Shown: positions 3,925 to 52,039 of the stretch, in pieces
How positions within the stretch are numbered: position 1 is the first letter of the stretch
Layout: the number at the start of each line of letters is the position of its first letter
Assembly (NCBI GenBank): GCA_030323885.1
Contig: CM059186.1
Span: 155,963,064-156,027,063, forward strand
DNA: 64,000 nucleotides
Source of the DNA: Branchipolynoe longqiensis
Lineage: Eukaryota; Annelida; Polychaeta; Phyllodocida; Polynoidae
Direction of reading: 5' to 3'
The notes under the pieces: model-generated
The model's database searches: none
What the model saw: only the letters and a program-made list of their open reading frames with translations
What the model was told of the DNA's origin: nothing
Translations under genes and position numbers: made by a program

Positions 3925-4116
3925 CCTATCCCCTAGATACAAGATTCACCCCGTACTGCTGCAGTAGGGGTGCAAACCAACCCTATGTAAAAGCTGTCGA
4001 AAAACCGGGTCAATGAAATGAGAGCCTAATTTCACAATGTAAGAAGCAACAATTATTCTTTACATCTGTCTTATTATTAGCCCGCTACCTTTGAGTTGAA
4101 AAATATCATATAATAT

Positions 4117-4290
4117 TGTAGTGGTCTGCACTGACCTCTCAGGCAAGGAGCCGCATAGACAGGTAGGCGTGGGTAGTGTGTTGATATCAGGGAGCCTATG
4201 TGGTGTAATGGTTAGCACACTGGCCCGGAATGCAAAGAGATGTGGGTTCGAGTCCCGCTCTAGGTGCATATTTCCCATTTTCATCACCCC
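4117..4290 (+). mobile_element. SINE-Q copy 1, tRNA(Gln)-like
   Basis: A tRNA-like segment at 4191-4268 has an A box in TGGTGTAATGGTTAGCACAC and a B box in GGGTTCGAGTCCCGC, closest to animal tRNA-Gln. It is preceded by about 75 bp shared by all full copies (TGTAGTGGTCTGCACTGACC) and followed by TTCCCATTTTCATCACCCC. The intervening anticodon arm is not tRNA-like, so this is a SINE rather than a working tRNA gene. Other copies: 4333, 23869, 52527, and partial copies at 5713 and 11500. Confidence 0.65.
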
Positions 4291-4326
4291 CCACGACACT
4301 GGTGTCGTGGGGGTGATGAAAATGGG
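4274..4326. repeat. Near-perfect 53-bp palindrome
   Basis: Left arm CCCATTTTCATCACCCCCC and right arm GGGGGTGATGAAAATGGG meet at a 2-base centre flanked by CACGACAC/GTGTCGTG. The only imbalance is one extra C in the left arm. It is formed by two SINE-Q 3' ends facing each other between copies 1 and 2. Confidence 0.85.
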
Positions 4327-4332
4327 GACGAG

Positions 4333-4515
4333 TGTAGTGGTCTGCACTGACCTCTCAGGCAAGGAGCCACATAGACAGGTAGGCGTGGGTAGTGTGTTGA
4401 TATCAGGGAGCCTAGGTGGTGTAATGGTTAGCACACTGGCCCGGAATGCAAAGAGATGTGGGTTCGAGTCCCGCTCTAGGTGCAGTATTTCCCATTTTCA
4501 TCACCCCCACGACAA
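4333..4515 (+). mobile_element. SINE-Q copy 2
   Basis: Almost identical to copy 1 across the leader, the tRNA-like segment (4407-4484) and the tail (ATTTTCATCACCCCCACGAC). The near identity of two copies 210 bp apart suggests recent local duplication rather than two independent insertions. Confidence 0.65.
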
Positions 4516-4872
4516 TATCAAGATTAATAAGATTTAAAAGTGAAATCGACGGCGTTCTACGGCTGCCATCTTGTCTTTTTGCATTCTCTCCCATTTCACC
4601 AACTCTGTGCCTATATAAATATCCATTTGATACTGGAGGCAGACATTCTACTCCCTGGTCCATACTAAAGCTATTTTCGCCCGTATTTAGACTACGTTGT
4701 CATTCACCCGTGTACTACAAGTACCGGGTGAATCTTTTATCTACCTACCCCCACCCTCGCCCCCAAAGGCAACAAACCCAAAAGCCAGCAGATTACAGAG
4801 CCAGGAATATAAAATTAGCCATCGACGGATGGTTGCAATGCCAACAGCAGCTGGGAATGCGATTTAATCTTT

Positions 4873-5226
4873 TTAAGGTTGCACAGTTTCATGGTTTTGA
4901 ATTTCTATAATTTTTTTCTGAGATAAGTATATTATTTTGATTATGATCTAACTTACTTTAGTTTGAAGTAACCTTTATTTGAAATGACTAACTTTAGAGA
5001 TATTTTAAATGCGAACATGTCAAATTAGTTTTGGCACACATGCCAAAACTCTGGCACCATGGGCTTCAGCAGTAACAGGTTCTATTAAATTGACTCAATA
5101 TTCCCTTCTATGTGGCGACAAATGCGTAATAACGGCAGCAATATCTAAGTTCGGTATGTAGAATCAAATCTAGATAATTGCTTTGGTTTTGAAAATTTGA
5201 TTCTTTATCCAACTATGCAGCTTTAA
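4873..5226. mobile_element. TTAA-bounded MITE, copy 1
   Basis: Bounded by TTAA at both ends, with a degraded terminal AGGTTGCACAG on the left and the reverse-complement end ACTATGCAGC on the right. Same internal order as the better copies at 16306 and 52040. Non-coding. TTAA targets are typical of piggyBac-type transposons, but TTAA could also be part of the inverted repeat. Confidence 0.65.
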
Positions 5227-5267
5227 GTGGATATAATTAGGAGGAAATGCCAGACGACCCTGTAGGT

Positions 5268-5488
5268 CATATTGTTTGTTTGTTGTGGTTTTACATCCTG
5301 GCAACACCTACGGTCATATCAGGATGGGTACTGGCTTGTGACTTCCCTACTGGTGCTTCCCTACTGGGAGACCAGGCTGCTGACACCATGACCGGATTTC
5401 CCACTCAGTCACATTATCCTGCTACTGAGCTAAGCCAGCCCTTGCGCTATCCTATTAATGCCGAGCGCCAGGGTATGTAGTGACAAGT
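5268..5488 (-). mobile_element. SINE-L, tail and body without head
   Basis: Starts TTGTTTGTTTGTTGTGG and covers the body to the segment near GCCAGGGTATGTAGTGAC; the tRNA-like head is missing. A short internal duplication (CTACTGG repeated near 5346-5367) is present. Confidence 0.6.
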
Positions 5489-5712
5489 GTCAAACTGTCA
5501 TGTGGTAACGGAGCTCATTCGCGACCATTACATTACCATTATTTCATTAGTTAAAGCCTCCACCCGAATATTGTTAATTGATTCACAGTCTCTCAAGATT
5601 CACCATGTGCCCAAAGGTCTCCAAGTACAGGTGACAACCGAAAGAAATGGCTTCCAACTACATTCCTCAAGATCGAAAACAGGCGGGCAAATGCCTTGAA
5701 TTTGTGCACATC

Positions 5713-5852
5713 GGGGTGATGAAAATGGGAAATATTGTGCCTAGAGCACGATTTGAACCCACACCTCTTGAAGTCTGGTCCACACCACCTAGGCTGCCTG
5801 ATGCCTAGGCTACGGGAGGCCTGCGCTCTACCGATTCGGTCACCACGCCCGG
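5713..5852 (-). mobile_element. Partial SINE-Q joined to a SINE-L type I head
   Basis: 5713-5800 is a reversed SINE-Q fragment (GGGTGATGAAAATGGGAAAT through ACACCACCTAGG). 5810-5852 is an isolated type I head in reverse (GCGCTCTACCGATTCGGTCA). The junction looks like broken remains of two insertions. Confidence 0.5.
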
Positions 5853-6049
5853 TCTGTGTGTGTGCTGGCATATGTCTGACAAATTCCCCGAGTGCCTCTG
5901 AAGCCCTCCTTGGAAGTTCAGAGACAAATATTTGATCACCCATCCTTTAGTAAAAGGTATTTGACTCCTTCTCTAAAATGTACACTTACTTATACATATG
6001 TGCATTGGAGCGTAACACATCCCATTAAAGGTCAAAATTATATATATAT

Positions 6050-6360
6050 ACATATATATATATAGTATAGTTATATGAATCTTACCCGGATACAGATGAT
6101 GGATAACTGGTGTTTTACCGAGGTACTAGCCTCGGATAGTCATGGGCCAGGGAGAAGGAAGCACATTCGTGTCCAGCAATCTTTTACGTACTTTATAAGG
6201 ATAAAAAATTATCTTATTCTTAGTATTATATGAATACTTTAGTGTCTTCGTGTTGGTACCAGCAAAATATGATAGTCGTGGTAGGGTAGGGTGGGCGGGC
6301 GGGCCCTGACCCACATTGGCTTTTATTGGCCCACACAAAGAGATGTTCAGAGGGCCCCAT
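6050..6360 (+). mobile_element. Isolated DIRS-like terminal repeat, opposite orientation
   Basis: After a TA microsatellite (6043-6063), TTTTACCGAGGTA at 6114-6126, AGGGAGAAGGAAGCACAT at 6151-6168 and GTCCAGCAAT at 6171-6180 are the reverse complement of the terminal-repeat landmarks at 32046-32125. The following 180 bp match only weakly, and no gag frame follows. I infer a solo or diverged terminal repeat of a related element. Confidence 0.45.
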
Positions 6361-6624
6361 TTGCAGGTCAGTTCTTCCCATGATCAGTAGGTATCGATTC
6401 AGCACTTTAAAAAAACCGCATTCAAAACCAGTGAGAGCCGGACATATTGAGATTTATACTAGGTGAGAATGATAGCTGCTAAGAGGGTGTTGATACCTAG
6501 TCATCATTTAATGTTTTTTGTGCTGCTATTTTAATGCCCATCAGACACCAGCCGAGTGTGGCGATTATTGCAGCTTCGGGATTCGCAATATGATTCCGGC
6601 AGGCTAAATGGCGAGGCAGTGCTT

Positions 6625-6930
6625 AAGCTTGTTTTATTTAACGACGCTTCTAGAGCATATCGATTTTCATATCATTGGCTATTGGACATCAAACATATGG
6701 TCATTCTGACATATTTCTTTGGAGGAAACCAGCTACCACCACATAGGCTACTTTTCCTGATAAGGAACAAGAGGTCGTTTATATACACTTTCTCACAGAT
6801 AGGACAGCACATACCACAACTTTGATGAACCAGTTGTGGACCACTGGTTGGAACAGAAAATATCCCCCAAACTGCAAATGGGTCCACTGAGCAGGATCGA
6901 TAGGATGACTGACAGCTTCACATGGGAAGC
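6625..6930 (-). mobile_element. Mollusc-type tRNA-derived SINE (SINE-T), degraded
   Basis: Reverse orientation relative to the better copy at 8595-8920. Shared blocks include TTGTTTTATTTAACGACGC, CACATAGGCTACT, GGACAGCACATACCACA, GTTGTGGACCACTGGTTGG and CAAACTGCAAATGGGTCCAC. The head end breaks off at about 6927, where a 13-bp minisatellite begins. Confidence 0.7.
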
Positions 6931-10889: not shown

Positions 10890-11499
10890 GCATGGATTAA
10901 GGAAGGTGTTGGATAAATATACAGTCAACCAACCCTGGTTAATACAGACCAGTTTTATTTCCTGCACACAGCGCATATCAGATTACCAGAAATGTCAATT
11001 AACCGGCCTTGAGAATAATAGTGACAACATTTGTAAAAAAAATTGTTTTAATTCTATTTCATGTAGGTTTTGATCAGATGGCGATATTTCCAGATTAATC
11101 GCCGTCGGATAAGGCGAGCTGAAGCATGTGCAGTGACACCTTCTTTCCGCTATTAACCCTTTAAGGACAGAAGCACCCAAATGCACCCGCAAGTTACCTG
11201 TACTTACAAGCCGGGAGCACGCGAATGTGCCCGCCATATCTGATATCATATATCATAACCAGTAATACCAAGGAAGCTAAAGTTGGTATCATTTGAAAGA
11301 GAAATCAATTTACTTTCATGAAAAATCTGACTGGATTTTCAACGGTTTTTGAGATATATCAATTTAATTGCACTGACATCACATATTCAAATTTCTTTTA
11401 ACAATTAGTACAGTACTCCAGGGAGTTAATAATTTAAATCTCTTTTGGGCTAAAATAAAATATAAATACGCACTTCCTCAGGCGTTCATAGCTTGGTTT
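10890..11499. other. Unclassified intergenic stretch
   Basis: No repeat family or gene recognised. Short open frames on both strands lack conserved motifs. Confidence 0.3.
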
Positions 11500-11592
11500 A
11501 TATCGTGGAGCCGAGATAGACTAACAGTTAGGAAGTGCACTCCTGAATGGCAAAGATGTGAATTTTGAGTCCCGCTCTAGGCGCAATGTTTC
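11500..11592 (+). mobile_element. SINE-Q, degraded partial
   Basis: Shares GGCAAAGATGTGAATTTTGA and GTCCCGCTCTAGGCGCAAT with the tRNA-like part of the SINE-Q copies; the leader is missing. Confidence 0.5.
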
Positions 11593-11597
11593 CCTTT

Positions 11598-18761: not shown

Positions 18762-19375
18762 ATCATCATCATCATGCTGTCGGTCGCGATGCGATAAAGA
18801 CTGCTTTCATTACTTGACTGCCGCTCTCCACCCAGCTCCCCGCCGTGAGAGTTGCGTCCATGAGTCGGTCTTAATGTCTCTCAGCTTCAGGTTTCTCTTG
18901 ATGGTATCTTTGAACCGGAGACGGGGGCACCCTCTCTTTCTGTAGCCAGAAGACAGTTGAGAATAGAGGATCTGCTTTGGTAGCCTGTCTGATGACATCC
19001 TCGTGAGGTGTCCAGTCCACCGGAGATTCTTTTTGATCAGCATTTCATGAAAGCTGCCTGCAAAAGTGTTGAAGTGCTGCTGGCTTTTGCAAGTTACCAG
19101 CGGCACTCTCTCGGAGAGCAAATAGAGGTTTCACACCGGCAAGAACATGTCAAGACAGGCGCAAAACTATTTGTCCCTGCAGTGGCTGGTCGGGAGATGT
19201 TGGGAGTTCCATACATCAACCGCCCTTAATGCTGCCACAGTGACATGGTTTTCTGTTTAGGGTTTGCTCCCTTAGCCTTTGGTTCTGTCAAGGACCTGTA
19301 CCACAAGGCAGTGGTTTACAACTCTGCAAGGCAGGGGCGTCAAACTCCCTGAGGTATTGCTATACCTGCATACCA
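18762..19375 (-). mobile_element. Chimeric retroelement copy 1: 5' module plus LINE 3' end
   Basis: The minus strand first reads a 5' module of about 320 bp shared with 22813-23415 and 56519-56877 (landmarks GGTATAGCAATACCTCAGGG, CAGTGGCTGGTCGGGAGATG in reverse). It then reads the C-terminus of a LINE protein at 19042-18813: LIKKNLRWTGHLTRMSSDRL, then RKRGCPRLRFKDTIKRNLK, DIKTDSWTQL, stop. This C-terminal pattern (RWxGHxxRM...RxRGxPxxRxKD...) is common at the end of animal LINE reverse transcriptases. The element ends in a (ATG)n tail at 18764-18775. The fragment is too short to encode reverse transcriptase. Confidence 0.75.
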
Positions 19376-20635: not shown

Positions 20636-20837
20636 TCATTTTTCGAGATAAATATATCAAATGTCTTGTTATAATTGGTATTACGTTAGCTTGAAATATG
20701 TTTATTATATATGGTTCACTTTGGAGATATTTAAAGTACAAACAACCCAACATAATTTTGATGTGCACACCGAAATGCTGGATATCATCAGCTTTGCTCA
20801 CTCATTTTCGATAATAGTAATGTGGCAGGGGAGCATC

Positions 20838-21254
20838 TAGATAAAAGATTCACCCAGTACTTGTAGTACACGGGTGAATGACAACGTAGTGTAAATACGG
20901 GCGAAAATAGCTTTAGTATGGAACAGGAAGTAGAATGCCTGGCTCCAGTGTCAAATGGTTATTTATATCGGCACAGAGTTGGTGAAATGGGAGAGAATGC
21001 AAAAAGACAAGATGGTGGTCATAGAACGCCGTCGATTTCACTTTTAAATCTTATTAAACCAGATGTTTTATTATATTTTTCAACTCAAGGGTAGCGGGGA
21101 AATATGAAGACATATACAAAGAATAAATGTTGCTTCTTAGATTGTGAAATTAGGCTCTCATAAAGACTCATTCATTAACCTGATTTTCCGATCGTTTTTA
21201 TATAAGGCTGGTCTTCACCCGTGTACTGCGAGTACCGGGTGAATCCTTTATCTA
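20838..21254. mobile_element. 9-bp-TSD TIR element, copy B (417 bp)
   Basis: TAGATAAAAGATTCACCC at the left, GGTGAATCCTTTATCTA at the right. Perfect 9-bp duplication GGGAGCATC at 20829-20837 and 21255-21263. Each end carries its own hairpin (left 20848-20879, TTCACCC paired with GGGTGAA). No coding frame. Inserted into MITE copy 5, so it is younger than that element. Confidence 0.9.
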
Positions 21255-21373
21255 GGGAGCATCAAACCGGCAAAGGCAACACAGTTTAATAAGTGTATCA
21301 GATGTAGGATCAAATCGAGGCAGGTGTTCTGGTTTATACAATACGGTGCTTTCGTCGGACTAGGCACCTTTAA

Positions 21374-22040: not shown

Positions 22041-22171
22041 CCCCTTCGTGTAATCAGTTAAAGGGCATGTTAACTGCCACTGTATTGCCGTTGGTTACAA
22101 TTAGATGCCCATCCTGTTCACCCTCCTGTCGCACCCCCCCCCCCCCCCGCTCTCCCACACACCCATCGACC

Positions 22172-22585
22172 TAGAGATAAAAGATTCACCCAGTACTTCC
22201 AGTACAGGGGTGAAAACCAACCCATTAGAAAAGCTGGTGAAGAATTTCGAAATGCTGGGTTAATTAACTGAGCTGGTAAATTCTTAATTTAAGAAGCACA
22301 ATATATTCTTTAAGTATGTCTTCATATTTACCCACTACTTTTGAGTTGGAAAATATAATAAAACATATACTTTAATGCAATTTAAAAGTGAAATCGACGG
22401 CTTTCTCTGGCTGCCATCTTGTCCTTTTGCATTCTCTCCAATTTCACCAACTCTGTGTTGATATAAGTAACCATTTGACACTGGTGCCAGGCATTCCTGT
22501 TCCATACTAAAGCTATTTTCGCCCGTATTTAGACTACGTTGTCGTTCACCCCTGTACTGTAAGTATGGGGTGAATCTTTTATCTC
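22172..22585. mobile_element. 9-bp-TSD TIR element, copy C (414 bp)
   Basis: TAGAGATAAAAGATTCACCC at the left, GGGTGAATCTTTTATCTC at the right. Duplication CCATCGACC (22163-22171) and CCATTGACC (22586-22594), one mismatch in nine. Interior matches B and E (landmark AAATCGACGGCTTTCTC). Confidence 0.85.
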
Positions 22586-22812
22586 CCATTGACCTATCTG
22601 CAAATTAGAACATCAAACATTTGAGATGAAAATTTGAGATATTAATTATGGGAGTTTAGCTCGGGTAGATGACTATAAACATGTCGACGGAAGTTATTTA
22701 TTGTCTGTCATGGGAAGATGGCAATGTGTCAGATGGTATAATATATGTAATGCAAATGCTTATATATTTGAATACATATATATATTTATATATTATATAT
22801 ATACAGTGATAG

Positions 22813-23415
22813 GTATGCAGGTATAGCAATACCTCAGGGAGTTTGATGCCCCTGCCTTGCAGAGTTCTAAACCACTGCCTTGTGGTACAGGTCCTTGACA
22901 GAACCGAAGGCTAAGGGAGCAAACCCTAAACAGAAAACCATGTCACTGTGGCAGCATTAAGGGCGGTTGATGTATGGAACTCCCAACATCTCCCGACCAG
23001 CCACTGCAGGGACAAATAGTTTTGCGCCTGTCTTGACATGTTCTTGCCGGTGTGAAACCTCTATTTGCTCCCCGAGAGAGTGCCGCTGGTAACTTGCAAA
23101 AGCCAGCAGCACTTCAACACTTTTGCAGGCAGCTTTCCTGTAATGTACAACCGCACAAAACACCATACCGGCTCGGCCTTCTCCCGGGTTACCAAGGACC
23201 GCACTGCTCGAGCTCATCTTCCGTCGACCGCGGAAAATCAGCTAGGAGGAACACAACGCAACACAACACAACTACTGAAACCTGAAGCTGAGAGACATTA
23301 AGACCGACTCATGGACGCAACTCTCACAGCAGAGAGCTAAATGGAGAGCGGCAGTCAAGTAATGAAAGCAGTCTTTGTCGCATCGTGACCGACAGCATGA
23401 TGATGATGATGATGA
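22813..23415 (+). mobile_element. Chimeric retroelement copy 2
   Basis: Shares the 5' module with 18762-19375 in opposite orientation. The middle differs: 23138-23275 carries sequence not present in the other copies. The LINE end resumes at AAACCTGAAGCTGAGAGAC and reads RDIKTDSWTQLSQQRAKWRA before the stop at 23360. The 3' tail is (ATG)n at 23396-23414. Confidence 0.75.
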
Positions 23416-23520: not shown

Positions 23521-24125
23521 TAAGGCCCAGTCACACCTTACCGGACTGGGGTACCGGACAAGAACCGGACACTGGCCGGTACTGTGCGGCGATGTCCGGT
23601 ACATGTCTGGTACCCATCCGGCGGTGTCCGGTGGTGTCCAGCGGTGTCCGGTACAAGTTTTGAACATGCACAAAACTTCTACCGGACACCACCGGACTGA
23701 CGTGTCCGGTTGGTGTCCGGTTGGTGTCCGATTTGTCTGGTTCATGTCCGGTATCCATCCGTATGTGTCCGGTACCCATCCGTTGGTGTCTGGTACCCAT
23801 CCGTTGGTGTCTGGTACCCATTCGTTGGTGTCCGGTTTGCGAGAACGTCAATAAAATATATATATACTGTAGTAGTCGGCACTGAAGTAACCACATAGAC
23901 AGGTAGGCGTGGGTAGTGTGTTGATATCAGGGAGCCTAGGTGGTGTAATGGTTAGCACACCGGCCCAGAATGCAAAGAGATGTGGGTTCAAGGCCCGTTC
24001 TATGTGCAATTGTTCCCATTTTCATCACCCCCATGACAATACCAAGAAAATCAAAAAAGTACAGTCCGGTACGTGTCCGGTTGATGGTCCGTCCGTCCGG
24101 TTCTCATCCGGTACTCGTCTGGTAC
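23521..24125. mobile_element. CAGTCACAC-ended element rich in CCGGA/TCCGG words, one end only
   Basis: Starts TAAGGCCCAGTCACACC, nearly the same end as the element at 45142-45788. The interior is dense in ACCGGAC and GTCCGGT words arranged in blocks of one orientation. A SINE-Q (23869-24045) interrupts it, and the CCGGT words resume at 24061-24125. The far end is not seen; degraded DIRS gag begins at about 24125. Confidence 0.6.
23869..24045 (+). mobile_element. SINE-Q copy 3
   Basis: Leader TGTAGTAGTCGGCACTG (with an internal deletion), tRNA-like segment with TGGTGTAATGGTTAGCACAC, tail CCCATTTTCATCACCCCC. Confidence 0.65.
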
Positions 24126-26918: not shown

Positions 26919-28286
26919 TTAATCAACCGTGTNNNNNNNNNNNNNNNNNNNNNNNNNNNNNNNNNNNNNNNNNNNNNNNNNNNNNNNNNNNNNNNNNNNN
27001 NNNNNNNNNNNNNNNNNNNNNNNNNNNNNNNNNNNNNNNNNNNNNNNNNNNNNNNNNNNNNNNNNNNNNNNNNNNNNNNNNNNNNNNNNNNNNNNNNNNN
27101 NNNNNNNNNNNNNNNNNNNNNNNNNNNNNNNNNNNNNNNNNNNNNNNNNNNNNNNNNNNNNNNNNNNNNNNNNNNNNNNNNNNNNNNNNNNNNNNNNNNN
27201 NNNNNNNNNNNNNNNNNNNNNNNNNNNNNNNNNNNNNNNNNNNNNNNNNNNNNNNNNNNNNNNNNNNNNNNNNNNNNNNNNNNNNNNNNNNNNNNNNNNN
27301 NNNNNNNNNNNNNNNNNNNNNNNNNNNNNNNNNNNNNNNNNNNNNNNNNNNNNNNNNNNNNNNNNNNNNNNNNNNNNNNNNNNNNNNNNNNNNNNNNNNN
27401 NNNNNNNNNNNNNNNNNNNNNNNNNNNNNNNNTTAATAAAGCTGACCAAAAGCTGTCTTGTGTTTCTTATTAATCTTGTCTTGGATATATAATTCCGTAT
27501 CGCAGATACGACACATAACTTGCGATCCTGAGTGAAACTAGACACCCCTATCGTAGAAAAGGGGTCACCTAATCGGTTTGATTTTAATAAAGTTGATAAA
27601 TCAAACGTGGCCTCTTTACTGTCAATTTCTAGACCATTCAGCGACAGGGCAACTATAGTTTGGCCTCTGTGTCCAGTGACCAGGAGAAGCAAAACTGCGA
27701 CTTTGAAAACTAAAAGTTTAACGTCCAGAAACTTATTTTCTGGCCATTTCTTGAAGAGGTTGAACACTAGAGAAACATCCCAAAACCTATTATATTTGGG
27801 TTTAGGCGGATTCCTCTGATAAATTGATCGTATGATCCAACAAATAACATGGTGTTTACCCAGTGTTTGTCCATTAACCCGCGGTAGGATTATCGACAGA
27901 GCACATCTGGCAGCGTTAATAGCGCCATATCCTAGGCCTTCGTCCTCTAGGTAACGTAGGAAGCGTCCTACCTGGGATACTGTGGGAGTCATTGGCTTGA
28001 CTTTCTTAAGCAGGCAATAAATACCCCATTTCTTTAAATACGTAGTATACATTTTCACCGTTCCTTTTCTCCACGCATCATCAACCAAACGCTGTTGTGT
28101 AATTTTGTCTAAGCCAAACTGTTGTAAATATTTATTTAAAAAAGGAATGCCACTAACGGAGTTGTCGACACGTTTCCGTGGCGTTCTAGTGGTCCCTTGT
28201 GTTTGAGGTTTCCTCGGAATCTTGGGAAGCGAAGGCTGCTTTTGGCTGTGGCTAGTAACGTCGGTAGCCACGGTTGCGTGTGCCAC
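26919..28286 (-). CDS. DIRS tyrosine recombinase, interrupted by assembly gap
   Basis: The enzyme would integrate the circular DNA intermediate of a DIRS retrotransposon, replacing the DDE integrase of LTR elements. The first 284 residues are readable. Residues 1-45 form a basic, low-complexity leader. Residues 60-135 form the N-terminal SAM-like DNA-binding domain (QRLVDDAWRKGTVKMYTTYL, then VGRFLRYLEDEGLGYGAINA). Residues 185-284 begin the catalytic domain, with TGHRGQT at 204-210 supplying the first catalytic Arg (207). The HxxR and Tyr motifs fall inside the 500-N gap, so activity cannot be judged; the stop at 26919 is only apparent because the gap length may be wrong. The start at 28286 overlaps the end of the RT frame by 151 bp in another frame, the usual DIRS arrangement. 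No stop or frameshift in the visible part. Confidence 0.85.
   Translation of the reverse strand: MAHATVATDVTSHSQKQPSLPKIPRKPQTQGTTRTPRKRVDNSVSGIPFLNKYLQQFGLDKITQQRLVDDAWRKGTVKMYTTYLKKWGIYCLLKKVKPMTPTVSQVGRFLRYLEDEGLGYGAINAARCALSIILPRVNGQTLGKHHVICWIIRSIYQRNPPKPKYNRFWDVSLVFNLFKKWPENKFLDVKLLVFKVAVLLLLVTGHRGQTIVALSLNGLEIDSKEATFDLSTLLKSNRLGDPFSTIGVSSFTQDRKLCVVSAIRNYISKTRLIRNTRQLLVSFIXXXXXXXXXXXXXXXXXXXXXXXXXXXXXXXXXXXXXXXXXXXXXXXXXXXXXXXXXXXXXXXXXXXXXXXXXXXXXXXXXXXXXXXXXXXXXXXXXXXXXXXXXXXXXXXXXXXXXXXXXXXXXXXXXXXXXXXXXXXXXXXXXXXXXXXXXXXXXXXXXXXXXXXXTVD
26933..27432. other. Assembly gap (500 N)
   Basis: Exactly 500 undefined bases, probably a fixed-size placeholder. It removes the C-terminal half of the recombinase gene and possibly the element's 3' terminal region. 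Confidence 1.
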
Positions 28287-30046
28287 TCGGGGACGATGAG
28301 TATGGCGTGTGTCCCCTCCATTTGAATCTTTCTGGCGACTTTGCTAATGATAGTCAAGGGGGGGAAAATGTAAAAGAAATGATGTCGCCACTTTAGGGAG
28401 AAGGCATCAATGTGCCAAGCATTGGGTTCCGGGTGCCACGAAACATATTTTGGAATTTTAAAGTTATTACGCGAAGCGAACAAATCGATCTGAGGTGAAC
28501 CCCATGTGTGACAAATGTGTTTTAAAATGGATGGATTAAGTGACCACTCTAAGTGATCATGGAACTGGCGACTCATCTTGTCAGCTAGACAATTTTGTGT
28601 GCCTGGAATGTGATTAACAGTTAACCAGACATCAAAGGTTTGAGCCCAGTTCCAAATGAGAAGTGCCATTTCATTACATTTAATCGATTTTGTATCTCCC
28701 ATATTTCTGACATAAGCCATAGCTGTGGTGTTATCCGTGAGGATACGTACATTATTTTTGGGTATTTTTACTAGACTGGTTAATCCCAAGTAAATGGCCC
28801 TTAGTTCTAGAACGTTAATATGATCGGGGAGTTCCGATTCTAGCCATCTTCCTCCCGTTGCTACATCATTTTGATGTGCTCCCCACCCTTGGAGAGACGC
28901 GTCAGTGGTAACGGTAGTGTCAGGCTCTCCCATTCTAATGGGATTTGGGGAATGGTCAAAGTGGTTTAGCCACCAATCAATGTCGGCTAGGCCGTTCTCC
29001 GAAATAAACATGGTCTTTTCAAAGTTTCCCTTTGCGCGGGCCAGCGCCAAATTTTTATCAATTTCGAGGGATTTTATGTGTGCCGCTCCGTATAGAATAG
29101 CTGGACTATACAAAATCATGACCCCGATAAGGACCGCGACCTGTCTAATCTTTGGCCTAGAAGTGTCTAACAGCTGTATCGCTGTGCGGTAAAGCTTATC
29201 TTTCTTTTGGCGTGTAAGCGAAACGGTCATAGCCGTGGTGTTCAGAATGAACCCGAGACACTTAAGCTCCTGAGTAGGAGAAAAAACTGATTTCTTCTTA
29301 TGTATGAAGAAACCCCATTTGGTGAAAATTTTGCATAAATCTTTAACAGCGAGTTCACATTGCGTGAAAGATTGGCCCATAATAAAAGAATCATCTATGT
29401 ATGGAAACGTACAATGCCCCAATTTTGCCATGTGTGAAAAAATTGGTTTCAACAACTTAGTAAACAGACGCGGTGCGCAGGCCAAACCATTAGGTAAACA
29501 TGTAAATTCAAAAAGTTGGCCATTCCAGAGAAAACGTAGGTATTTCCGATCTGTCTGGTGAATAGGAACGGTATAGTACGCATCCCTTAAATCAACCCTC
29601 GCTAGCCAACACCCTGGGGTAATTAAATCACGAGCTGTTTCTAAAGAAAACATTTTGAAATGTTTGTATTCAATGATTTCATTCAACTGAGTTAAATCTA
29701 AAATCATTCGGATTGAACCATCAGGTTTAGGAGTAGAGAAGATATTGGAAATATATTCCCCTTCAGTATGTTCAACTCTGTTGACAATGCCCTTAGACTC
29801 AAACAGTAGAACCTGCTGATCTAGCTGAGATTTTTCTAGTGAATTAAACTGATACGGAAATGGCGCTCTCTTTTGTATAGGCAATTGTGTGAAAGGGATG
29901 TGAATGCCTTTAACAATATTCAGGACCTCTGGATTAGTGGTTAACTGTTGCCATTGATGTAAACAATTAGAAACATTCCCTGCTTGAAAAAGGCTTACTT
30001 CAGTTTGAGTTTCCTCCGTGACCATTGTAGGGTCAGGAGGCTGCAC
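28136..30046 (-). CDS. DIRS reverse transcriptase-RNase H polyprotein
   Basis: A 636-residue frame without interruption. Residues 103-122 carry the RT entry motif (FSTPKPDGSIRMILDLTQLN). 151-158 (VDLRDAYY) is motif A with its catalytic Asp, 184-197 (LPNGLACAPRLFTK) is motif B, and 216-219 (YIDD) supplies the other two catalytic Asp residues; 261-266 is LKCLGF. RNase H follows: TDASLQGWGA (381-390), LELRA (413-417, catalytic Glu), TDNTTA (437-442) and the Asp of LADKMSR (487-493). Residues 515-595 contain IDLFASRNN, DAFSLKW, FPP and VPEW, a conserved extension of DIRS polyproteins. The ATG at 30046 lies 17 bases after the gag stop in a different frame; translation by re-initiation or from an upstream in-frame site is possible. 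All catalytic residues expected of an active enzyme are present, so the copy is young. Confidence 0.95.
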   Translation of the reverse strand: MQPPDPTMVTEETQTEVSLFQAGNVSNCLHQWQQLTTNPEVLNIVKGIHIPFTQLPIQKRAPFPYQFNSLEKSQLDQQVLLFESKGIVNRVEHTEGEYISNIFSTPKPDGSIRMILDLTQLNEIIEYKHFKMFSLETARDLITPGCWLARVDLRDAYYTVPIHQTDRKYLRFLWNGQLFEFTCLPNGLACAPRLFTKLLKPIFSHMAKLGHCTFPYIDDSFIMGQSFTQCELAVKDLCKIFTKWGFFIHKKKSVFSPTQELKCLGFILNTTAMTVSLTRQKKDKLYRTAIQLLDTSRPKIRQVAVLIGVMILYSPAILYGAAHIKSLEIDKNLALARAKGNFEKTMFISENGLADIDWWLNHFDHSPNPIRMGEPDTTVTTDASLQGWGAHQNDVATGGRWLESELPDHINVLELRAIYLGLTSLVKIPKNNVRILTDNTTAMAYVRNMGDTKSIKCNEMALLIWNWAQTFDVWLTVNHIPGTQNCLADKMSRQFHDHLEWSLNPSILKHICHTWGSPQIDLFASRNNFKIPKYVSWHPEPNAWHIDAFSLKWRHHFFYIFPPLTIISKVARKIQMEGTHAILIVPEWHTQPWLPTLLATAKSSLRFPRFRGNLKHKGPLERHGNVSTTPLVAFLF

Positions 30047-30063
30047 TGTTTGTGTGGAAATCT

Positions 30064-31395
30064 CTACTTGTTCCCTTGTTTCGTGAAATGGGGCTTGGGA
30101 ACGAAATCCCTCTTGTAGCCGCGGTTGTCGTTCCAGTTTGAGGCCGGCCTGTCGCCTCGGCCCCTTCCTCGCTGGTTGAACTGGAAGGACGGTCCGCCCC
30201 TGAACGGCCTTCCTCCTCTGCGGAATCGAAAATCCGTCCTAGACTTTCTGAACCCTGCTGGGTTTTGGAAGCGACGAATCTTTGCTTCAGTGTTTTTAGC
30301 ACTCTTGTAGTCGACCTCTACCTGTTTGTACAGGTAAGCTAGCTGACCCCCAAACATCTTGGATTTATCAAGCGGTTTGCTCTTGATAGGGGTAGGTCCG
30401 GAATACACGGTGTATTCCTTACCATCATGGTCCGTTACCTTCTTAGAGCGGGCAACCTCTTTTCCGGCATCTGTGGTGACCGATTTGAACACGTTTTCAA
30501 ATCTCCGATGGGTCATGTAGTTACTAGCGGCTGCTAACAAAGCTATGCCCCGGTCCATAACCCGCGCCAAAGACGAGAACTTGTTCTCTGTCTGCATCCT
30601 GTTAGCCACAGGGATAACAGACGTCAAGGCACCCAAAACTGCCTTATGGATCAGGCAGAGGGAAGTTTCATAACGACGGCGTTCGTCGGAAAGATGAATG
30701 CCGGAATCCATCTCTTTGAAAACAGAAGCAGGAATGCCCTTAACTCCTGAAATCTGCTCAGTCAACTTGTTGATGACTTCGATCGGTTTAAACGTAGTGA
30801 AATGGCTATTCACCGTTTTGCGCATCATGGTAGTGGTGCGCACTTTCTGAGCTTTCTTTTTGACAATCTTCTTGCCAGCTTTAACGCCTATTTTGGCGTA
30901 GACTCCCGCTCGTTCCGTGTCGGAATCCGACTCGGTGGAAGAAGAGTCGGACGACGAGTCTGAAGAGGAGTCCTTCTTCGTCTTCTTCTTCTTCTTCTTT
31001 TTGGACTTTTTGGAGCGCTTAGAGTTCGCTTTCTTTGTGAACTCGTCACCAGAACTGCTCACTGGGCGGCGTTTCTTGCCCCGCGCTTTCGGTTTCGGAA
31101 CCTCAGGTGCCGAAACCGTGTCCTCTTCGTCCTCAGAAAAGTCTTCCCAATCCTCATCGGGGATTTGGGAAGGATCTGGAAAGGTCTGCGCCTGGAACTG
31201 GCACATCTTCTCCTCCATCATCGCCGCCATTTTCGCCTCCCACCCCACTGGTTGAGGGGCCTGATCACTGTCTTGATCCGAGGCATGAGCCCCAAGATGT
31301 GGGGACGGCGGAGCCGTAGCCGGTGGAGATGAATCGTAATCCGTAGGAGGGACGCCCACGGCTGCAGCGGGCGGCTTATTCCGGCGAGTGGCCAT
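30064..31395 (-). CDS. DIRS gag-like protein
   Basis: A 443-residue uninterrupted frame, first in the element. Residues 1-55 are Ala/Pro-rich; 75-93 acidic (DEDWEDFSEDEED); 102-142 very Lys-rich, resembling a nuclear-localisation or nucleic-acid-binding segment; 142-160 alternating Ser/Asp/Glu. Residues 190-365 form the conserved core shared with the degraded copy at 24125-25323 (GVKGIP, KEMDSG, KFSSL, TDAGKEVARSKKV, LDKSKMFGGQL). The C-terminus (375-443) is Arg/Gly-rich (RRGGRPFRGG, QRGRGRGDRP) and has no CCHC zinc knuckle; it probably binds nucleic acid instead. The start at 31395 is supported by the same MAT- opening in the two other copies. Its role as structural protein follows from position and composition, not from a recognised fold. 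Confidence 0.85.
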   Translation of the reverse strand: MATRRNKPPAAAVGVPPTDYDSSPPATAPPSPHLGAHASDQDSDQAPQPVGWEAKMAAMMEEKMCQFQAQTFPDPSQIPDEDWEDFSEDEEDTVSAPEVPKPKARGKKRRPVSSSGDEFTKKANSKRSKKSKKKKKKKTKKDSSSDSSSDSSSTESDSDTERAGVYAKIGVKAGKKIVKKKAQKVRTTTMMRKTVNSHFTTFKPIEVINKLTEQISGVKGIPASVFKEMDSGIHLSDERRRYETSLCLIHKAVLGALTSVIPVANRMQTENKFSSLARVMDRGIALLAAASNYMTHRRFENVFKSVTTDAGKEVARSKKVTDHDGKEYTVYSGPTPIKSKPLDKSKMFGGQLAYLYKQVEVDYKSAKNTEAKIRRFQNPAGFRKSRTDFRFRRGGRPFRGGPSFQFNQRGRGRGDRPASNWNDNRGYKRDFVPKPHFTKQGNK

Positions 31396-32147
31396 CGGGA
31401 ACTGTAACGAAACAGAGCGTTACTAACCCGGAATCATCTCAACTACACAAGTGTAAGCCAGTAAACTGGGTTGAGGACCATGGTACAGAGAACGTGTTTT
31501 GCAACGTGTCAGTACAGGCGTGAAGCTAAATTTGCCGTAGGTGTGTGGTAACGAAACCAACCAAACGGAGGGCATCGATCGTGAGATCGGCCCCTCTCTC
31601 TGTTCCGTACACTTCTCCCACCTGTGGCTACAGCGCAAACAAGTTGGAGAAAATATTACGAAACTCGGAGGTTCGCCTTAAACCGGTCAGGGGTGTTTAT
31701 AAAAAACACCCAGAAGCATCCCCAACATCATCCTCTATTAGGATCCGGGAGACTTTTCTTAGGAAATGAGCAACTCGGGTTACCATTTCTCCCTGTCTGA
31801 AAAACAGGTGTCGATAGAACTCAGTATCGGTTTCGTTTGTGCCAGCGGCACGCAATGTTCTATCCGTAAGTTAAAAAACGTACAAAGTCCAAACAGGACT
31901 GAAGACAGTTCTGAACTTTCATAAAAAGATGCTATAGAGCATGATAAACAAAGTTATCGAAGAAAACAGTACTTACTTTTGGATAAAAGCAGTAGTAGTA
32001 GATAAATCCTGTGGAGCAACTCACCAACGTCCTCCCGTTGTGAGTTACTTATGCTAATTGCTGGACCCGGATGTGCTTCCTTCTCCCTAGCCTGCGGCTA
32101 GCCAGAGGCGGCATACCGAGGTAAAATATATATATATATTTATAGTA
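31396..32147 (-). mobile_element. DIRS 5' terminal repeat and leader of the main element
   Basis: Matches 40-812 and 25324-26027. Inner leader landmarks are ACTTCTCCCACCTGTGGCT and AACAAGTTGGAGAAAATATT. Outer landmarks are TATGCTAATTGCTGGACCC, CTTCCTTCTCCCTAGCCTG and CATACCGAGGTAAAATATAT. The outer end abuts a TA run and then a fragment of the pogo-like MITE. The matching inverted repeat expected at the 3' end (left of 26919) was not found and may lie in the gap or be missing. Confidence 0.7.
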
Positions 32148-33739: not shown

Positions 33740-33933
33740 CACACACACACACATATAGTTGTATGCATATGCGAATAAGAAAAGTTGAATTGCCTGCTGT
33801 TGACAAAGGTAGTACACGGCAATGGTGTAGAGTGAGCACACATTCCATTTCCGATAGCCCGCCCACTTGCCAATGTACTTACTAATCAACTATATGAGAC
33901 CGAGAGGCTTGAGGGGCACCAGATAACATTGGT
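33321..33933. other. TA/CA microsatellite-rich stretch
   Basis: Long TA runs at 33682-33734 followed by CA repeats. Open frames across it are artefacts of the repeat. Confidence 0.6.
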
Positions 33934-34089
33934 GGGTTGGTTAATGGAGTTTTACGTCCTGGCAACATCTAGGGTGATATCAGGACGGGTACCGACTTGT
34001 GGCAGTGCGCACTCATGGTGCCTTTATAGTGCTGCCCCACTGGGGGACCAGACCGCCAGCACCATGACCTGATATCCCACTCAGTCACC
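33934..34089 (-). mobile_element. SINE-L, 3' half
   Basis: GGTTGGTTAATGGAGTTTTA to GATATCCCACTCAGTCA; the head half is absent. Confidence 0.6.
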
Positions 34090-36543: not shown

Positions 36544-37164
36544 CAACAGCCGATTAGTTATACATGTGAACAGTCAGAGTCAGGGGCAGAGTCAGGGGCA
36601 GAGTCAGGGGTAGATTCAGGGGAAGAGTCAGTGGCGGAGTCAGGGGCAGAGGCAGAGTCAGAAGGTGTCAACTGTCAATGAGGTTAAACGCTGACCCGAT
36701 GTAACTTCCAAATCTTCTAAGCATTGTGAATTATGTGCGTCAGCCACTCATAATTACACACCCGGGTGGGCGCTTAAATACTCAAGTGTTGGTCTAAGTA
36801 CACCTCAGGGGAGCCAAGTTTCCCGATTTGGTGGGAGATCGCCCTAAAACAGAGCAAAATAAACCCATGTTCCGATTTCCCACTTTTGATTTATAATCTC
36901 ACGCCAAAGAATCATTTTAGTTGTTTTGGGGTGTTTTTTGTTTTTTTAATTGTGTATATTTTGTCCATAAAATTCACCAGAATTCACCATTTTGCATCAC
37001 TTTTTTCTTTAGGGGGACGGCCCCTGGAAGCCCTCCGCTCTGTGGGACCGGGCAACCCCAGCCCCCTCCTCCTGTACCCCCCCCCCCCAACCACCACATT
37101 ATTTCTCCTTATTTACAATTTGTGTTTTTAGGGAGATCTCCCTAAGGACATTCTTATCTACTTG
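36544..37164. other. Unclassified; contains a short minisatellite
   Basis: 36572-36660 repeats AGTCAGGGGCAG with variants. The rest shows no recognised feature. Confidence 0.4.
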
Positions 37165-37509
37165 TTTGTTGTTTTACGTCCTAGCAACATCTATGGTCAT
37201 ATCAGGACGGGTACCGACTTGTGACAGTGCGCACTCATGACGACTATATAGTGCTGCCCCACTGGGATACCAGGCTGCCAGCACTATGACCTGATATCCA
37301 ACTCAGTCACATTATCCTGACACTGAGCCAACCAGTCCTTGCCATATCCTAATAATGCCGAGCACTAGGCTAGGAAGTGACAAGTATCAATTTTAAGTCA
37401 TTGATTTGACTCGACCAGGGTTCGAACCCACAAACCCATGGGTTCGGATCCCCCGATCTCCCAAAACAGGAGACGGACGCTCAACTCATTCGGCCATCCC
37501 GTCTGGTAT
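37165..37509 (-). mobile_element. SINE-L type II, full length with target duplication
   Basis: Flanked by TTCTTATCTACTTG at 37151-37164 and 37510-37523 (14 bp, perfect). Tail TTTGTTGTTTTACGTCC; head in reverse CATTCGGCCATCCCGTCTGG. Confidence 0.9.
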
Positions 37510-39749: not shown

Positions 39750-40030
39750 AACTACTGATTTGGTATGCTATAAACCTGTGGCATCCTATATTCTCAGGTT
39801 CTCACCGTACAAGTACCTTACTCACGAAGCTCAATATTGCTTAACTTCAGTAATCGGACAAAAAAACAACATATAAAATAAGTGCACAGCAAGAATTCTA
39901 CCAAGTTTGGTCATGAGGGGGGTTATCGTTACAGGTTAAATACAAGTTTAAAGCGCCGGGTATATGCTGAAGGACGTGGTTGGGAGGGACACCTCTCCCA
40001 AGTTCTGCTCTGACCTGGCATGCTGGGTCA

Positions 40031-40927
40031 TAGATACAAGATTCACCCCGTACTGCTGCAGTAGCCACAGGAGGGGTGCATACCAACCCTATGTAAAAGC
40101 TGTCGAAAAAACGGGTCAATGAATTGAGATCATAAATTTACAATCTAAGAAGCAACACTTTTTCTTTATATATATCTTCATATTTACCCGCTATCTTTGA
40201 AATGGTTAGTGTATTACTTCCCCTGGGTTGATGAATCTTAAGATATGGATCGACAGAACACCTGGATACACATGTCGGCCATTTTGGGAGGGTAGAAGGA
40301 AGTTGAGAGGCTCATGGGTAATTATCCAGTCTGGTTCAGGGAGCATTCATTGCAGGCTCTAGAACCACTTGGCATGTCATGGACGCTATGATGGCTTTTG
40401 AGAAACTACTACACCATGTTCAACAGAAATACCATATGCGCTTCAATATTAAAGAGAAACAAATGGAAATCATCTGGAGATTAGTTGTAGCAACTAGTAT
40501 TGATGCCAACCTCTCAGCTTGGAACGCAGAATGTGACCCGGTGACAACCTCTCAATTCACTAACCAGACACCAGAATACAGGACCTATATATAATAAATG
40601 CTCCCTGGCTGACTTCCAACAGGAAGTGATGTAAGAGAACCAGTTCATTCAAACATGGTGGATTTACTTCATGGACTCTATCACTTCAAACTGATTTCTG
40701 TCAACCTGACTTGAGATTGTGTGATTTGAACACTCTGGGGTGTATATGTTGAGGGTTAATATAAACACTTGGATTGTAGCTATTGAATGTTAGACAACAT
40801 AAGGTAGGACTGCCAAACTAAGCCTTTCTAAGGCCATTACTATTGAGACATATTTTCTCCAACTTTTACATAGGGCTGGTTTTCACTGCTGATACAGCGT
40901 CAGCGTCAGCGGTGAATCTTTTATCTA
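40031..40927. mobile_element. 9-bp-TSD TIR element, copy D, with unrelated interior
   Basis: TAGATACAAGATTCACCCC at the left, GGTGAATCTTTTATCTA at the right. Flanks GCTGGGTCA (40022-40030) and GATGGGTCA (40928-40936), 8 of 9 matching. The left arm (to about 40205) matches copy A; the right arm matches only for about 70 bp. The interior (40206-40855) is absent from copies A, B, C and E. Confidence 0.85.
40379..40594 (+). CDS. Possible captured exon inside TIR element D
   Basis: A 71-codon frame from an ATG at 40379, with a second ATG four codons on. The part FEKLLHHVQQKYHMRFNIKE followed by KQMEIIWRLV resembles the helix that precedes the ATP-binding loop of RecQ-like helicases (F-x-I-x-x-x-Q-x-E-x-I). 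The similarity stops soon after, about where a splice donor could lie. No Walker A motif is present. The upstream 150 bp could be 5' untranslated sequence. Alternatively this is a chance frame; the helicase reading is a guess from a short pattern. Confidence 0.25.
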   Translation: MDAMMAFEKLLHHVQQKYHMRFNIKEKQMEIIWRLVVATSIDANLSAWNAECDPVTTSQFTNQTPEYRTYI

Positions 40928-41012
40928 GATGGGTCACAGCTTCAGCTCTTCCTGGGGGATCAGCGAGAACTTGGAATATCCGTATTATCTCAACAGTCAT
41001 TTGGTTATTGAC

Positions 41013-45863: not shown

Positions 45864-45869
45864 ATATAT

Positions 45870-47700: not shown

Positions 47701-47724
47701 TGTATGTTGTGTATGTTGTTGTGC

Positions 47725-48912: not shown

Positions 48913-48959
48913 AAGTATGTAGTCATAATATGGCCCACTGGGAAATCAGGCCGCCGGCA

Positions 48960-49175: not shown

Positions 49176-49217
49176 CCAAGACATCCTGCACAGATTTTAA
49201 ACATATGCGCCGTACAG

Positions 49218-49538
49218 ACGGGGTGCGGTGGCCGAATCAGTAGAGGTGGGTCTCACATGCGGGAGATCGGGAGTTCGATCCCCAGTCGACTCAAACCAAT
49301 GACTTACAAAATTGATACTTGACACTACCTAGCCTGGCGCTTGGCATTAATAGGATAGGGCAAGGACTGGTTAGCTCAGTGTCAGGATAATTTGACTGAG
49401 TGGGATATTGGGGCATTGCGCTGGCAGCCTGATTTCCCAGTGGGGCAATCACCATGAGTGTGCACTGTCACAGTTCAATATCTATCCTGATATGACTTTA
49501 AATGTTTCCAGGATGTAAAACTCCAACGACCAACCAAT
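49218..49538 (+). mobile_element. SINE-L type I, full length
   Basis: Head GGGTGCGGTGGCCGAATCAG, B box GGGAGTTCGATCCCCAG, complete body with a small deletion near 49446, tail TGTAAAACTCCAACGACCAA. Confidence 0.75.
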
Positions 49539-49552
49539 CCTATGCTCCATGG

Positions 49553-49855
49553 TGTTCTCTGTGGCGGAGTGGTTAGAGTGTCTGACTTTTTTCTAGGTCG
49601 GACTCCTAACCTGAAGGTCAGTGGTTCGATTCCCCGTGCCCCCATCTCTGCCAATTTGTATTTCCACCGCTGTGTATAACTTACAGCGTCATCAAAGGCC
49701 AGTTGCTCTCATACCATGTCTATGTGGTGTGGGAGGTTAAAAATCCCTTGGGTCGGTAAAAGTGTAGGCTCGGGCTTTCTGTCGACAAACTGTCTAATGG
49801 TGAAAACAAGCCTATTAAGGCTTATCCATGATAGGCAGTATAAATCTTCAACAAC
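49553..49855 (+). mobile_element. SINE-S, full length
   Basis: tRNA-like head with A box TGGCGGAGTGGTTAGAGTG, a long variable arm (as in Ser/Leu tRNAs) and B box GTGGTTCGATTCCCCG. Body includes CTCATACCATGTCTATGTGG, GGGTCGGTAAAAGTGTAGGC and a tail region CAGTATAAATCTTCAACAAC. It provides the empty site for the MITE at 26283-26542. Confidence 0.8.
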
Positions 49856-50081
49856 AATATACATATTATCTTGTATTAATCGGCTTAATCATCATAGGAC
49901 ACGGTGAATAAAGGTTCGAGTATTTAACCTATTTAGAGTGCATGTTGATATTCCGCTTGTCAAACAAACCGAACAATGTTTCCAACTGAGGGAGACTTGT
50001 TGCAGTGGGAGGACCTTAGGCCACACCGTAAACCACTGTAGGGCCCTACAAACCACGCCGTTACATAATACAAGAAGCTGC

Positions 50082-50299
50082 TTGTTTGTTGTGTTATGTC
50101 CTAGCAACCTCTACGGTCATGTCAGGACGGGTGCTGACTTGTGACAGTGCACACTCATGGCAACTTAATAGTGCTGTCCAGAGACAAGGCCACCAGCACC
50201 ATGACCCGATATCCCACTCAGTCACATTCTCCTGACAATGATCCTATTAATGCCGGGCACCAGGCTAGGTTGTGACCGTTTCGGCCCCCGCGTCCGGTA
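50082..50299 (-). mobile_element. SINE-L type I with internal deletion
   Basis: Tail and body as usual, then a jump from AGGCTAGGTTGTGACC to the head (TTTCGGCCCCCGCGTCCGG); about 70 bp around the B box are missing. Confidence 0.65.
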
Positions 50300-50379
50300 A
50301 TAAGTTGTAGCAACAATTTTCTGAGCAGTTTCCAAAAAGAAAACATCAACTGGGCACATGTCGTGTGCAAAGATATTTT

Positions 50380-50610
50380 CGTATTGTATTCGTATTGTAT
50401 TCATATTGTATTCATATTGTAATCGTACTGTATTCGTATTGCGTTCGTATTGTATTTGCATTGTACTTGTATTCGTATTGGATTCGTATTGTATTCGTAT
50501 TGTATTCGTATTGTATTCGTATTGTATTCGTATTGTATTTGCATTCGTATTATATTGATATTGTATTCGTTTTGTATTCGTATTGTATTTGTATTGTATT
50601 CATACGTATT
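50380..50610. repeat. 11-bp minisatellite (GTATTGTATTC)
   Basis: About 20 tandem units, GTATTGTATTC with few variants. Frames rich in IVFVLYSYC on one strand and YEYNTNTIRI on the other are repeat translations. Confidence 0.9.
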
Positions 50611-50624
50611 ATACATATATTATA

Positions 50625-50816
50625 CTGTAAAACCTCTCGAGCCGACCACCTCCACAGATCGACCACTCCACCTATATTGATCGCTTTATTTGGGTCCCAA
50701 ACGATCGCCCATGCAATACTATTGTAACAATATTCTAACTCCCTAATCCAACCACCTCCTTGAGTGGGTCATTTAAAGTTGGTCCCATGATCGGTCGATT
50801 TACAGAGGTTTTACTC
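50625..50816. mobile_element. Pogo/Tc1-mariner-like MITE, copy 2
   Basis: CTGTAAAACCTCTCGA at the left, the reverse complement of GAGTAAAACCTCTGTAAA at the right, TA on both sides. Interior GATCGCTTTATTTGGGTCCC as in the copy at 39138. Confidence 0.75.
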
Positions 50817-51452
50817 TACTTATATTCTATTTATATTCAAGCTTATTCTATTTATATTCATATTCATATATATTCATGCTATTTTTATAGTATATTACTA
50901 TTATAAATGTATATATTCTATTTATATTCAACTTGATTATATTTATATTCAACTTGATTCTACTTATATTAATATTTATATATATCCATGTTATATTCAT
51001 ATTATACTATACATATATTATTATACTCATTTTCAATCAATCAATCAATCAATGGGATACAGCTATACTTATCAAAAATGATTTAAAATGGTATGTTTTC
51101 TCTATAAATCCACATTTGTGCCGAAAAGACTGTCAGTTGCTCAATATGAAGCGAGTGTTAAGAGAGCCTCAATTGCCTCTCCACAGACTCTGTGACCCAC
51201 AAGTCCAGTCTGGATTACGCTTTGCATATGCGTAGTGGAAATCGTGTATTATACCCTCCCACTACTTCTACCAGAGGCAGACTTCCACACCCACAGTATG
51301 TACACACACGTACAGAGTCCCAACTACCCAGAAAATGTAATCCAGATAATGCATGTAACTAACTAAAATAGGGAATAGTTGGTGGAGTGTTGATGGTGTT
51401 ACCTTACTGTGTATCTATGTGCAGGGGTTGACTGAACATACGGGCCAATCAC
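50817..51452. other. Unclassified AT-rich stretch
   Basis: 50820-51030 is built of TATTCATATT-like phrases; a CAAT run at 51035-51053 may be a LINE tail, followed by about 190 bp (RKDCQLLNMKRVL-type frame) with no recognised domain. Confidence 0.35.
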
Positions 51453-51461
51453 ACACCATGT

Positions 51462-51878
51462 TAGATAAAAGATTCACCCCGTACTTACAGCACAGGGGTG
51501 AATGACAACGTAGTCTAAATACGGGCAAAAATAGTGTTAGTATGGAACAACAAGTAGAATGCCTGGCACCAGTGTCAAATGGTTACTTATATCAGCACAG
51601 AGTTGGTGAAATGGGAGAGAATGCAAAAAGACAAGATAGCAGCCAGAGAACGCCGTCGATTTCACTTTTAAATTGCATTAAAGTATATGTTTTATTATAT
51701 TTTCCAACTCAAAAGTAGGGGTAAACATGAAGACATATACAAAGAATAAATGTTGCTTCTTAGATTGGGAAATTAGGCTCTCATAAAGACTCAATTCATT
51801 AGCCCGATTTTTCGACCGTTTTTATATAAGGCTGGTCTTCACCCGTGTACTACAAGTATCGGGTGAATCTTTTATCTA
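51462..51878. mobile_element. 9-bp-TSD TIR element, copy E (417 bp)
   Basis: TAGATAAAAGATTCACCCC at the left, GGGTGAATCTTTTATCTA at the right. Flanks ACACCATGT (51453-51461) and ACACCAGGT (51879-51887). Interior closely matches copy B, including AAATCGACGGCGTTCTCTGG in reverse. Confidence 0.9.
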
Positions 51879-52039
51879 ACACCAGGTTAACCAAGGCAGG
51901 AATGGGCCCCACTCCTGGTACTGCATAATGTATGTGGAATTATAAACTCTCCAACTGTTATGTGTCATTATCCTGGAGTATATTAAATCGAAGGCTGTCC
52001 AACAAAGAGGCCTTACAAATAGGGGATCTAACTTTTTAC

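Follow-up and report, generated by a model that had tools for sequence, protein, structure and literature searches.

Target site duplications (TSDs) of about 9 bp are reported for more than one superfamily of DNA transposon: 8–11 bp for Mutator and 9 bp for Rehavkus (PMC6446971), 9 or 10 bp for AcademH (PMC10045372), and 8 or 9 bp, together with GG termini, for Merlin (PMC8101967). Besides AcademH, the closest described systems are two animal families. Muta1 of Aedes aegypti, a Mutator-like element (MULE) of the Phantom group, duplicates 8 or 9 bp, as do its non-autonomous derivatives; it has terminal inverted repeats (TIRs) of 145 bp, a 12-bp subterminal repeat present nine times and a short, imperfect terminal palindrome of 10 bp, and many derivatives keep the same ends around different cores (PMC5225508). 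Tm1, a Mutator/Foldback family of root-knot nematodes, duplicates 8–10 bp, mostly 9 bp, in 45 of 53 complete copies; it includes MITE-like (miniature inverted-repeat transposable element) and longer members with different cores, and its composite TIRs are arrays of 13–15 bp tandem repeats (PMC3169594). Here, we describe five copies of a small transposon with 9-bp TSDs in 64,000 nucleotides of the polynoid annelid Branchipolynoe longqiensis (assembly GCA_030323885.1, contig CM059186.1, positions 155,963,064 to 156,027,063; hereafter, the window) and compare them with these systems.

Sequence inspection confirmed five complete elements where a first-pass annotation of the same DNA had placed them, with the ends and flanking 9-mers that it had listed (Table 1). 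TIRs of ~70–75 bp were common to all 10 ends by BLAST and an end profile, with ~41 bp of them at 85–93% identity. The annotation had been right that the ends are shared, but the repeat is longer than the 18 bp it had given, and in elements 1 and 4 the left end is TAGATACAAG. Element 3 reads GAGATAAAAG...CTTTTATCTC, preceded on the left by an additional TA. If its start is taken as 22174, the terminal triplet is TAG in eight of the 10 ends and GAG in two; counted from 22172, nine are TAG and one is GAG. The end profile found 10 ends in the window, all paired within the five elements (next best match, E = 1.7), and no solo ends below E = 1. Two types of end can be told apart: elements 1, 2, 3, and 5 combine one of each, and element 4 has the same type on both sides. 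Elements 2, 3, and 5 are full copies (414–417 bp) of one miniature transposon of ~417 bp. Together with element 1, which was compared after leaving out its insert, the copies of this type were 81–91% identical in pairs over 384–416 aligned positions.

With element boundaries set by the inverted ends, the left and right flanks of elements 1 to 5 matched at 8, 9, 8, 8, and 8 of 9 positions, respectively. For 8-bp flanks the matches were 5, 2, 2, 2, and 2, and for 10-bp flanks 5, 3, 4, 2, and 2; across lengths of 4–15 bp except 9, the best match per element was 5/8, 3/6, 6/13, 2/5, and 5/11. The 2-bp flanks of elements 1 and 3 also matched at 2/2, which has little meaning. The earlier assertion that five matches at 8 or 9 positions are very unlikely by chance held: among 200,000 random pairs of 9-mers drawn from the window, at least eight matches occurred at a frequency of ~3.6e-4 and perfect matches at ~1.3e-4, and all 20 swapped pairs of left and right flanks matched at five or fewer of 9 positions. 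Taken together, these results indicate that the 9-bp duplications are real. The 8-bp matches do not fit the hAT and P superfamilies, whose TSDs are 8 bp. The two copies of the TSDs differ at 4 of 45 positions in total, which, together with the divergence between the elements, suggests that the insertions are old; the TSD mismatches fit insertions of roughly the same age as the copies. Mean GC content of the left TSD copies was 62% (p ~0.01 against nearby 9-mers), but with only five sites no weight can be placed on a GC-rich target preference.

Based on the shared inverted ends of ~70–75 bp, a core conserved in four of the five elements, the five 9-bp repeats, and interior matches on seven other contigs (described below), the five copies very probably represent one non-autonomous, MITE-like family of cut-and-paste DNA transposons; this confidence concerns the mechanism and not the superfamily. 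The family is genuine, though of an ordinary non-autonomous TIR kind, clean and well delimited; it can be added to the repeat library of this genome, and its fixed 9-bp signature makes copies easy to date and verify. In such a mechanism, a DDE-type transposase supplied in trans would bind the ends and excise the element, which would then be joined to a target whose two strands had been cut with a 9-bp stagger, as the duplications suggest; repair of the gaps would yield the 9-bp duplications. The earlier observation that no element of this TIR family with 9-bp TSDs encodes a recognised transposase is well supported. In a non-exhaustive Pfam scan for transposase relics, covering 19 open frames (157 frames of at least 70 codons lie outside repeats in the window), only reverse transcriptases scored above the cut-off. 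The annotation had further stated that a helper must exist elsewhere in the genome, for which we would substitute "must have existed": given the TSD differences and the divergence between copies, the helper may be extinct.

Table 1. Features of the transposon family in the window (position 1 is the first nucleotide of the window)
Feature	Position	Strand	Remarks
Element 1	3934..4743	-	miniature transposon of the 417-bp type with a nested SINE pair inside; mosaic
Left TSD, element 1	3925..3933	+	CCTATCCCC; 8/9 versus 4744-4752
Right TSD, element 1	4744..4752	+	CCTACCCCC
Nested insert in element 1	4109..4513	+	two tRNA-Ser-containing SINE units; array ~4117-4514
Element 2	20838..21254	+	complete 417-bp non-autonomous element; matched by 7/7 ENA proteins
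Left TSD, element 2	20829..20837	+	GGGAGCATC; 9/9
Right TSD, element 2	21255..21263	+	GGGAGCATC
Subterminal palindrome, example	20848..20879	+	ATTCACCC...GGGTGAAT; inner GTACT/AGTAC stem
Element 3	22172..22585	-	complete copy in reverse orientation; GAGATAAAAG ends; extra TA at left
Left TSD, element 3	22163..22171	+	CCATCGACC; 8/9
Right TSD, element 3	22586..22594	+	CCATTGACC
Element 4	40031..40927	.	family ends around unrelated core
Left TSD, element 4	40022..40030	+	GCTGGGTCA; 8/9
Right TSD, element 4	40928..40936	+	GATGGGTCA
90-aa open frame in element 4	40322..40591	+	no family match above cut-off
Element 5	51462..51878	+	full copy of 417 bp; 90% identity with element 2
Left TSD, element 5	51453..51461	+	ACACCATGT; 8/9
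Right TSD, element 5	51879..51887	+	ACACCAGGT

With the open frame of element 2 as query, seven proteins were retrieved in all (E = 6.5e-19 to 1.6e-8), predicted on short ENA contigs (548–1614 bp), and in tblastn each of them aligned to the interior of every one of the four 417-bp-type copies. The alignment of one protein (P0127) passes a frame change and reaches the codons GESFI, two bases from the end of element 2 and within the TIR. Identity in this second stretch is 37%, with gaps, which makes a shared end probable, not certain. The matches indicate that the family also occurs on further sequenced contigs, whether from this species or another, and, to judge from these alignments, the element is a dispersed family. 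One frame is open through the same stretch in all four copies. Despite this frame and the seven matches, we do not favor a protein encoded by the miniature element. Longest frames of such size arose in 36–124 of 500 base shuffles. Synonymous and non-synonymous codon differences per pair numbered 3–6 versus 5–8 over the first 48 codons and 3–6 versus 6–13 over 70 codons, which favors neither reading. Both P0127 and another of the proteins (P0124) follow the element DNA across the frame change, suggesting that the interior is conserved apparently as DNA rather than as protein. Variable columns at the first, second, and third codon positions numbered 9, 3, and 13 (48 codons) and 14, 7, and 14 (70 codons). 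Since second positions vary least, it is possible that the interior descended from a coding stretch of a parent element. The element frames had no Pfam family above the cut-off. Pattern matches in viral (3) and prokaryote (18) sequences were single ends, with both ends at none of the 21 loci, and were taken as chance. Nothing was found in viral contigs by peptide and DNA pattern searches or in plasmids and phages by DNA searches. In a text search of the literature on the theme, which was not a search by sequence, no title or opening of an abstract was recognisable as this family, which is not to say that repeat libraries lack it.

The new observation here is that every end has, immediately next to the outer TAGATAAAAG on its inner side, an interrupted palindrome in which some of the changes are compensatory. 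It spans ~32 bp and lies 10 bp inside the terminus. Usually, arms reading TTCACCC...GGGTGAA enclose an inner stem, GTACT...AGTAC, that closes a small loop; the inner part is different in both ends of element 4, the right one of which keeps the stem despite a different arm sequence. As the two arms of the palindrome, TTCACC faces outward in each end and recurs there in inverted, inward-facing form; most simply, these would be a pair of head-to-head contact sites for the transposase. When folded as single-stranded DNA, all 10 ends formed a stem-loop (z-scores of −1.8 to −5.5, the weakest being that of the left end of element 4), and in six of them none of 200 shuffles was as good. For covariation, nine ends were aligned, leaving out the left end of element 4 (9-bp insertion). 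In this alignment, 85.7% of cells pair, and double-sided changes occur in 4 of 14 pairs, a number reached by five of 500 shuffles. The covariation score (0.179) was reached by none of 500 shuffles and exceeded all six slid controls, although this test is inflated by related sequences. The outermost pair fails in six of the nine rows. Among the arms, CCCC/GGGG changes to CCCG/CGGG, and element 4 has GCTGA/TCAGC.

As a feature of the ends, the palindrome has good support, whereas selection on it is weakly supported. Paired changes can arise in the absence of selection through quasi-palindrome repair. There is a considerable chance, somewhat below even, that the end palindromes are a by-product, similar to each other through template switching or gene conversion within the hairpin and with no role in transposition. 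The inflation by related rows and the shuffles that reached the number of double-change pairs are consistent with this; however, the stem is kept in all 10 ends, even where the arm sequence differs at the right end of element 4. We consider it unlikely that the ends are recognised at least partly by DNA structure, i.e., by a hairpin or cruciform extruded 10 bp inside the terminus, its stem conserved while the sequence drifts by compensatory changes. If true, this would be a structure-reading end in a eukaryotic transposon with a 9-bp TSD. A palindrome at every end nevertheless offers a testable hypothesis on how the missing transposase reads its substrate.

As to the superfamily, Mutator is the most likely assignment, with roughly an even chance of being correct, and another or an unknown superfamily is a clearly smaller possibility. 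Mutator is favored by the 9-bp TSD, by TIRs of tens of bp, and by the interior of element 4, which is replaced as in the MULE derivatives described in PMC5225508 and PMC3169594. The TSD of all five elements lies within the 8–11 bp of Mutator, and the TIRs of all 10 ends lie within the range of 14–500 bp given in a survey of Mutator elements, whose TIRs are usually long. The combination of a 9-bp TSD, a ~75-bp TIR, and a palindrome 10 bp inside resembles Muta1, as does the exchange of cores between the same ends, but it is not the same: our TIR is about half as long, no tandem repeats were found, and the palindrome is longer and not terminal. Tm1 is similar in its TSD length and different cores, and differs in its terminal motifs and in its composite TIRs; in the TIRs here, only the palindrome and no tandem array of the Foldback type was reported.

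Several points weigh against a Mutator-type, non-autonomous family. Neither a transposase nor a helper copy nor an empty site was seen, and the evidence for the superfamily consists of TSD length and TIR length only. The TAG/GAG termini are not the G/C-rich first three bases of most arthropod MULEs (PMC13359780), a tendency that is not defining, and they fit no superfamily decisively. The maize Mu target consensus, SW::SWNNNNNWS::WS (PMC2774946), was matched at 14 of 40 positions over the five sites, a score at least equalled by 97% of random sets, although this trait is not defining either. In addition, the flanks of several elements share other dispersed repeats, none of which adjoins the element ends in register. 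The first-pass annotation had held that a 9-bp duplication points to Mutator-like transposition. This was a fair first guess, but the length is not diagnostic, as it is also reported for AcademH, Rehavkus, and some Merlin elements in the literature cited at the outset; in animals, a 9-bp duplication by itself is no ground for filing an element under Mutator.

Among these, descent of the family, as non-autonomous copies, from AcademH, the helicase-encoding lineage of Academ, is unlikely. The AcademH TSD of 9 or 10 bp fits the 9 bp here and its hosts are animals (PMC10045372), and the resemblance of the open frame in element 4 to a RecQ-type helicase N-terminus, a lead only, would point the same way. 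Autonomous members encode a helicase, none of which was recognised here, and the frame in element 4 matches no helicase, although non-autonomous copies need not carry one. Rehavkus or Merlin is an improbable source, even though their TSD lengths fit (PMC6446971, PMC8101967). The conserved 5'-GG termini of Merlin occur in none of the 10 ends. The minisatellite before the 3' TIR of Rehavkus was not found, as Tandem Repeats Finder (score ≥50) gave only the SINE (short interspersed nuclear element) dimer inside element 1, and we hold assignment to Rehavkus in particular to be quite improbable.

Finally, there is next to no chance that the flanking repeats are coincidental and that the elements spread by segmental duplication or recombination. 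It is true that four of the five repeats are imperfect and that the flanks of several elements share other sequence: in the 500 bp compared beyond the 9-mers, the right flanks of elements 1 and 5 are 75% identical over 265 bp, and the left flanks of elements 3 and 4 are 80% identical over 229 bp, inverted. However, all five pairs match at length 9 and swapped flanks never do, and the shared stretches start at least 38 bp from the elements, aside from one stretch between elements 2 and 3, where the right flank of the former is partly the same DNA as the left flank of the latter because the two are neighbors. As the shared stretches lie at different distances or beside oppositely oriented elements, they look like other dispersed repeats, not co-duplicated flanks. 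Chance TSDs were thus rejected by the random-pair and swapped-flank comparisons, and segmental duplication by the 9-mers and the flank layout. One dispersed repeat (1979-2242, 33836-34069, 37013-37237, 52524-52850, and 62113-62433), with VLATSKVISGRVPTCDSAHS-like text in translation, may be among the repeats shared by the flanks.

Two elements depart from the 417-bp form. In element 4, homology to the family extends over 170 bp (BLAST) to 225 bp (profile) on the left and ~75 bp on the right, and the core of ~600–650 bp had no significant relative within the window. Its open frame bears some resemblance to the N-terminus of a RecQ-type helicase, a lead only, supported by no library. The frame matched no helicase family in Pfam, and parts of it matched none in NCBIfam, no protein in a large database and, as a 36-residue piece, no PDB chain.

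Element 1, in turn, is not an independent long form. It is a 417-bp element interrupted by a nested SINE pair, which accounts for the extra length, and its reading as a longer or autonomous form was rejected. The insert units are in tandem, each with a tRNA-Ser-like sequence (ARAGORN, Rfam), and AATATCA stands on both sides of the insert (4102-4108 and 4514-4520) as a candidate duplication. The element is also mosaic, with element 4 as the closest match for the left 161 bp (84%) and element 2 for the right 220 bp (94%). A palindrome at 4285-4315, containing an inverted SINE tail, separates the two units. The same tRNA-Ser-derived SINE family occurs at 4117-4514, 23868-24047, and 52527-52712, with fragments near 5713-5802 and 11496-11597; no exact duplications of at least 6 bp were found around the two single copies.

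Other repeats lie elsewhere in the window. A large retroelement (26919-31419, minus strand) has a reverse transcriptase (Pfam RVT_1, E 1e-20) and an upstream charged open reading frame (ORF), and its last ORF is cut by a 500-N gap (26933-27432). This last ORF may be a tyrosine recombinase; Pfam finds nothing in it. One relative of the reverse transcriptase protein carries PF00589, and the retroelement is probably DIRS-like. A reverse transcriptase resembling those of long interspersed nuclear elements (LINEs) is also present; together with the DIRS-like retroelement and the tRNA-derived SINEs, it would fit an animal genome. Another dispersed repeat (18996-19226, 22960-23241, and 56553-56795) contains the same translated stretch, KSVEVLLAFASYQRHSLGEQIEVSHRQ, with one residue different in the third copy. 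Toward the end of the window, a strongly G-rich purine tract (~54.8–55.9 kb) is followed by a degenerate minisatellite of ~3.4 kb (57607-61052) with ATGTCTC-type units of 10 to 30 bp.

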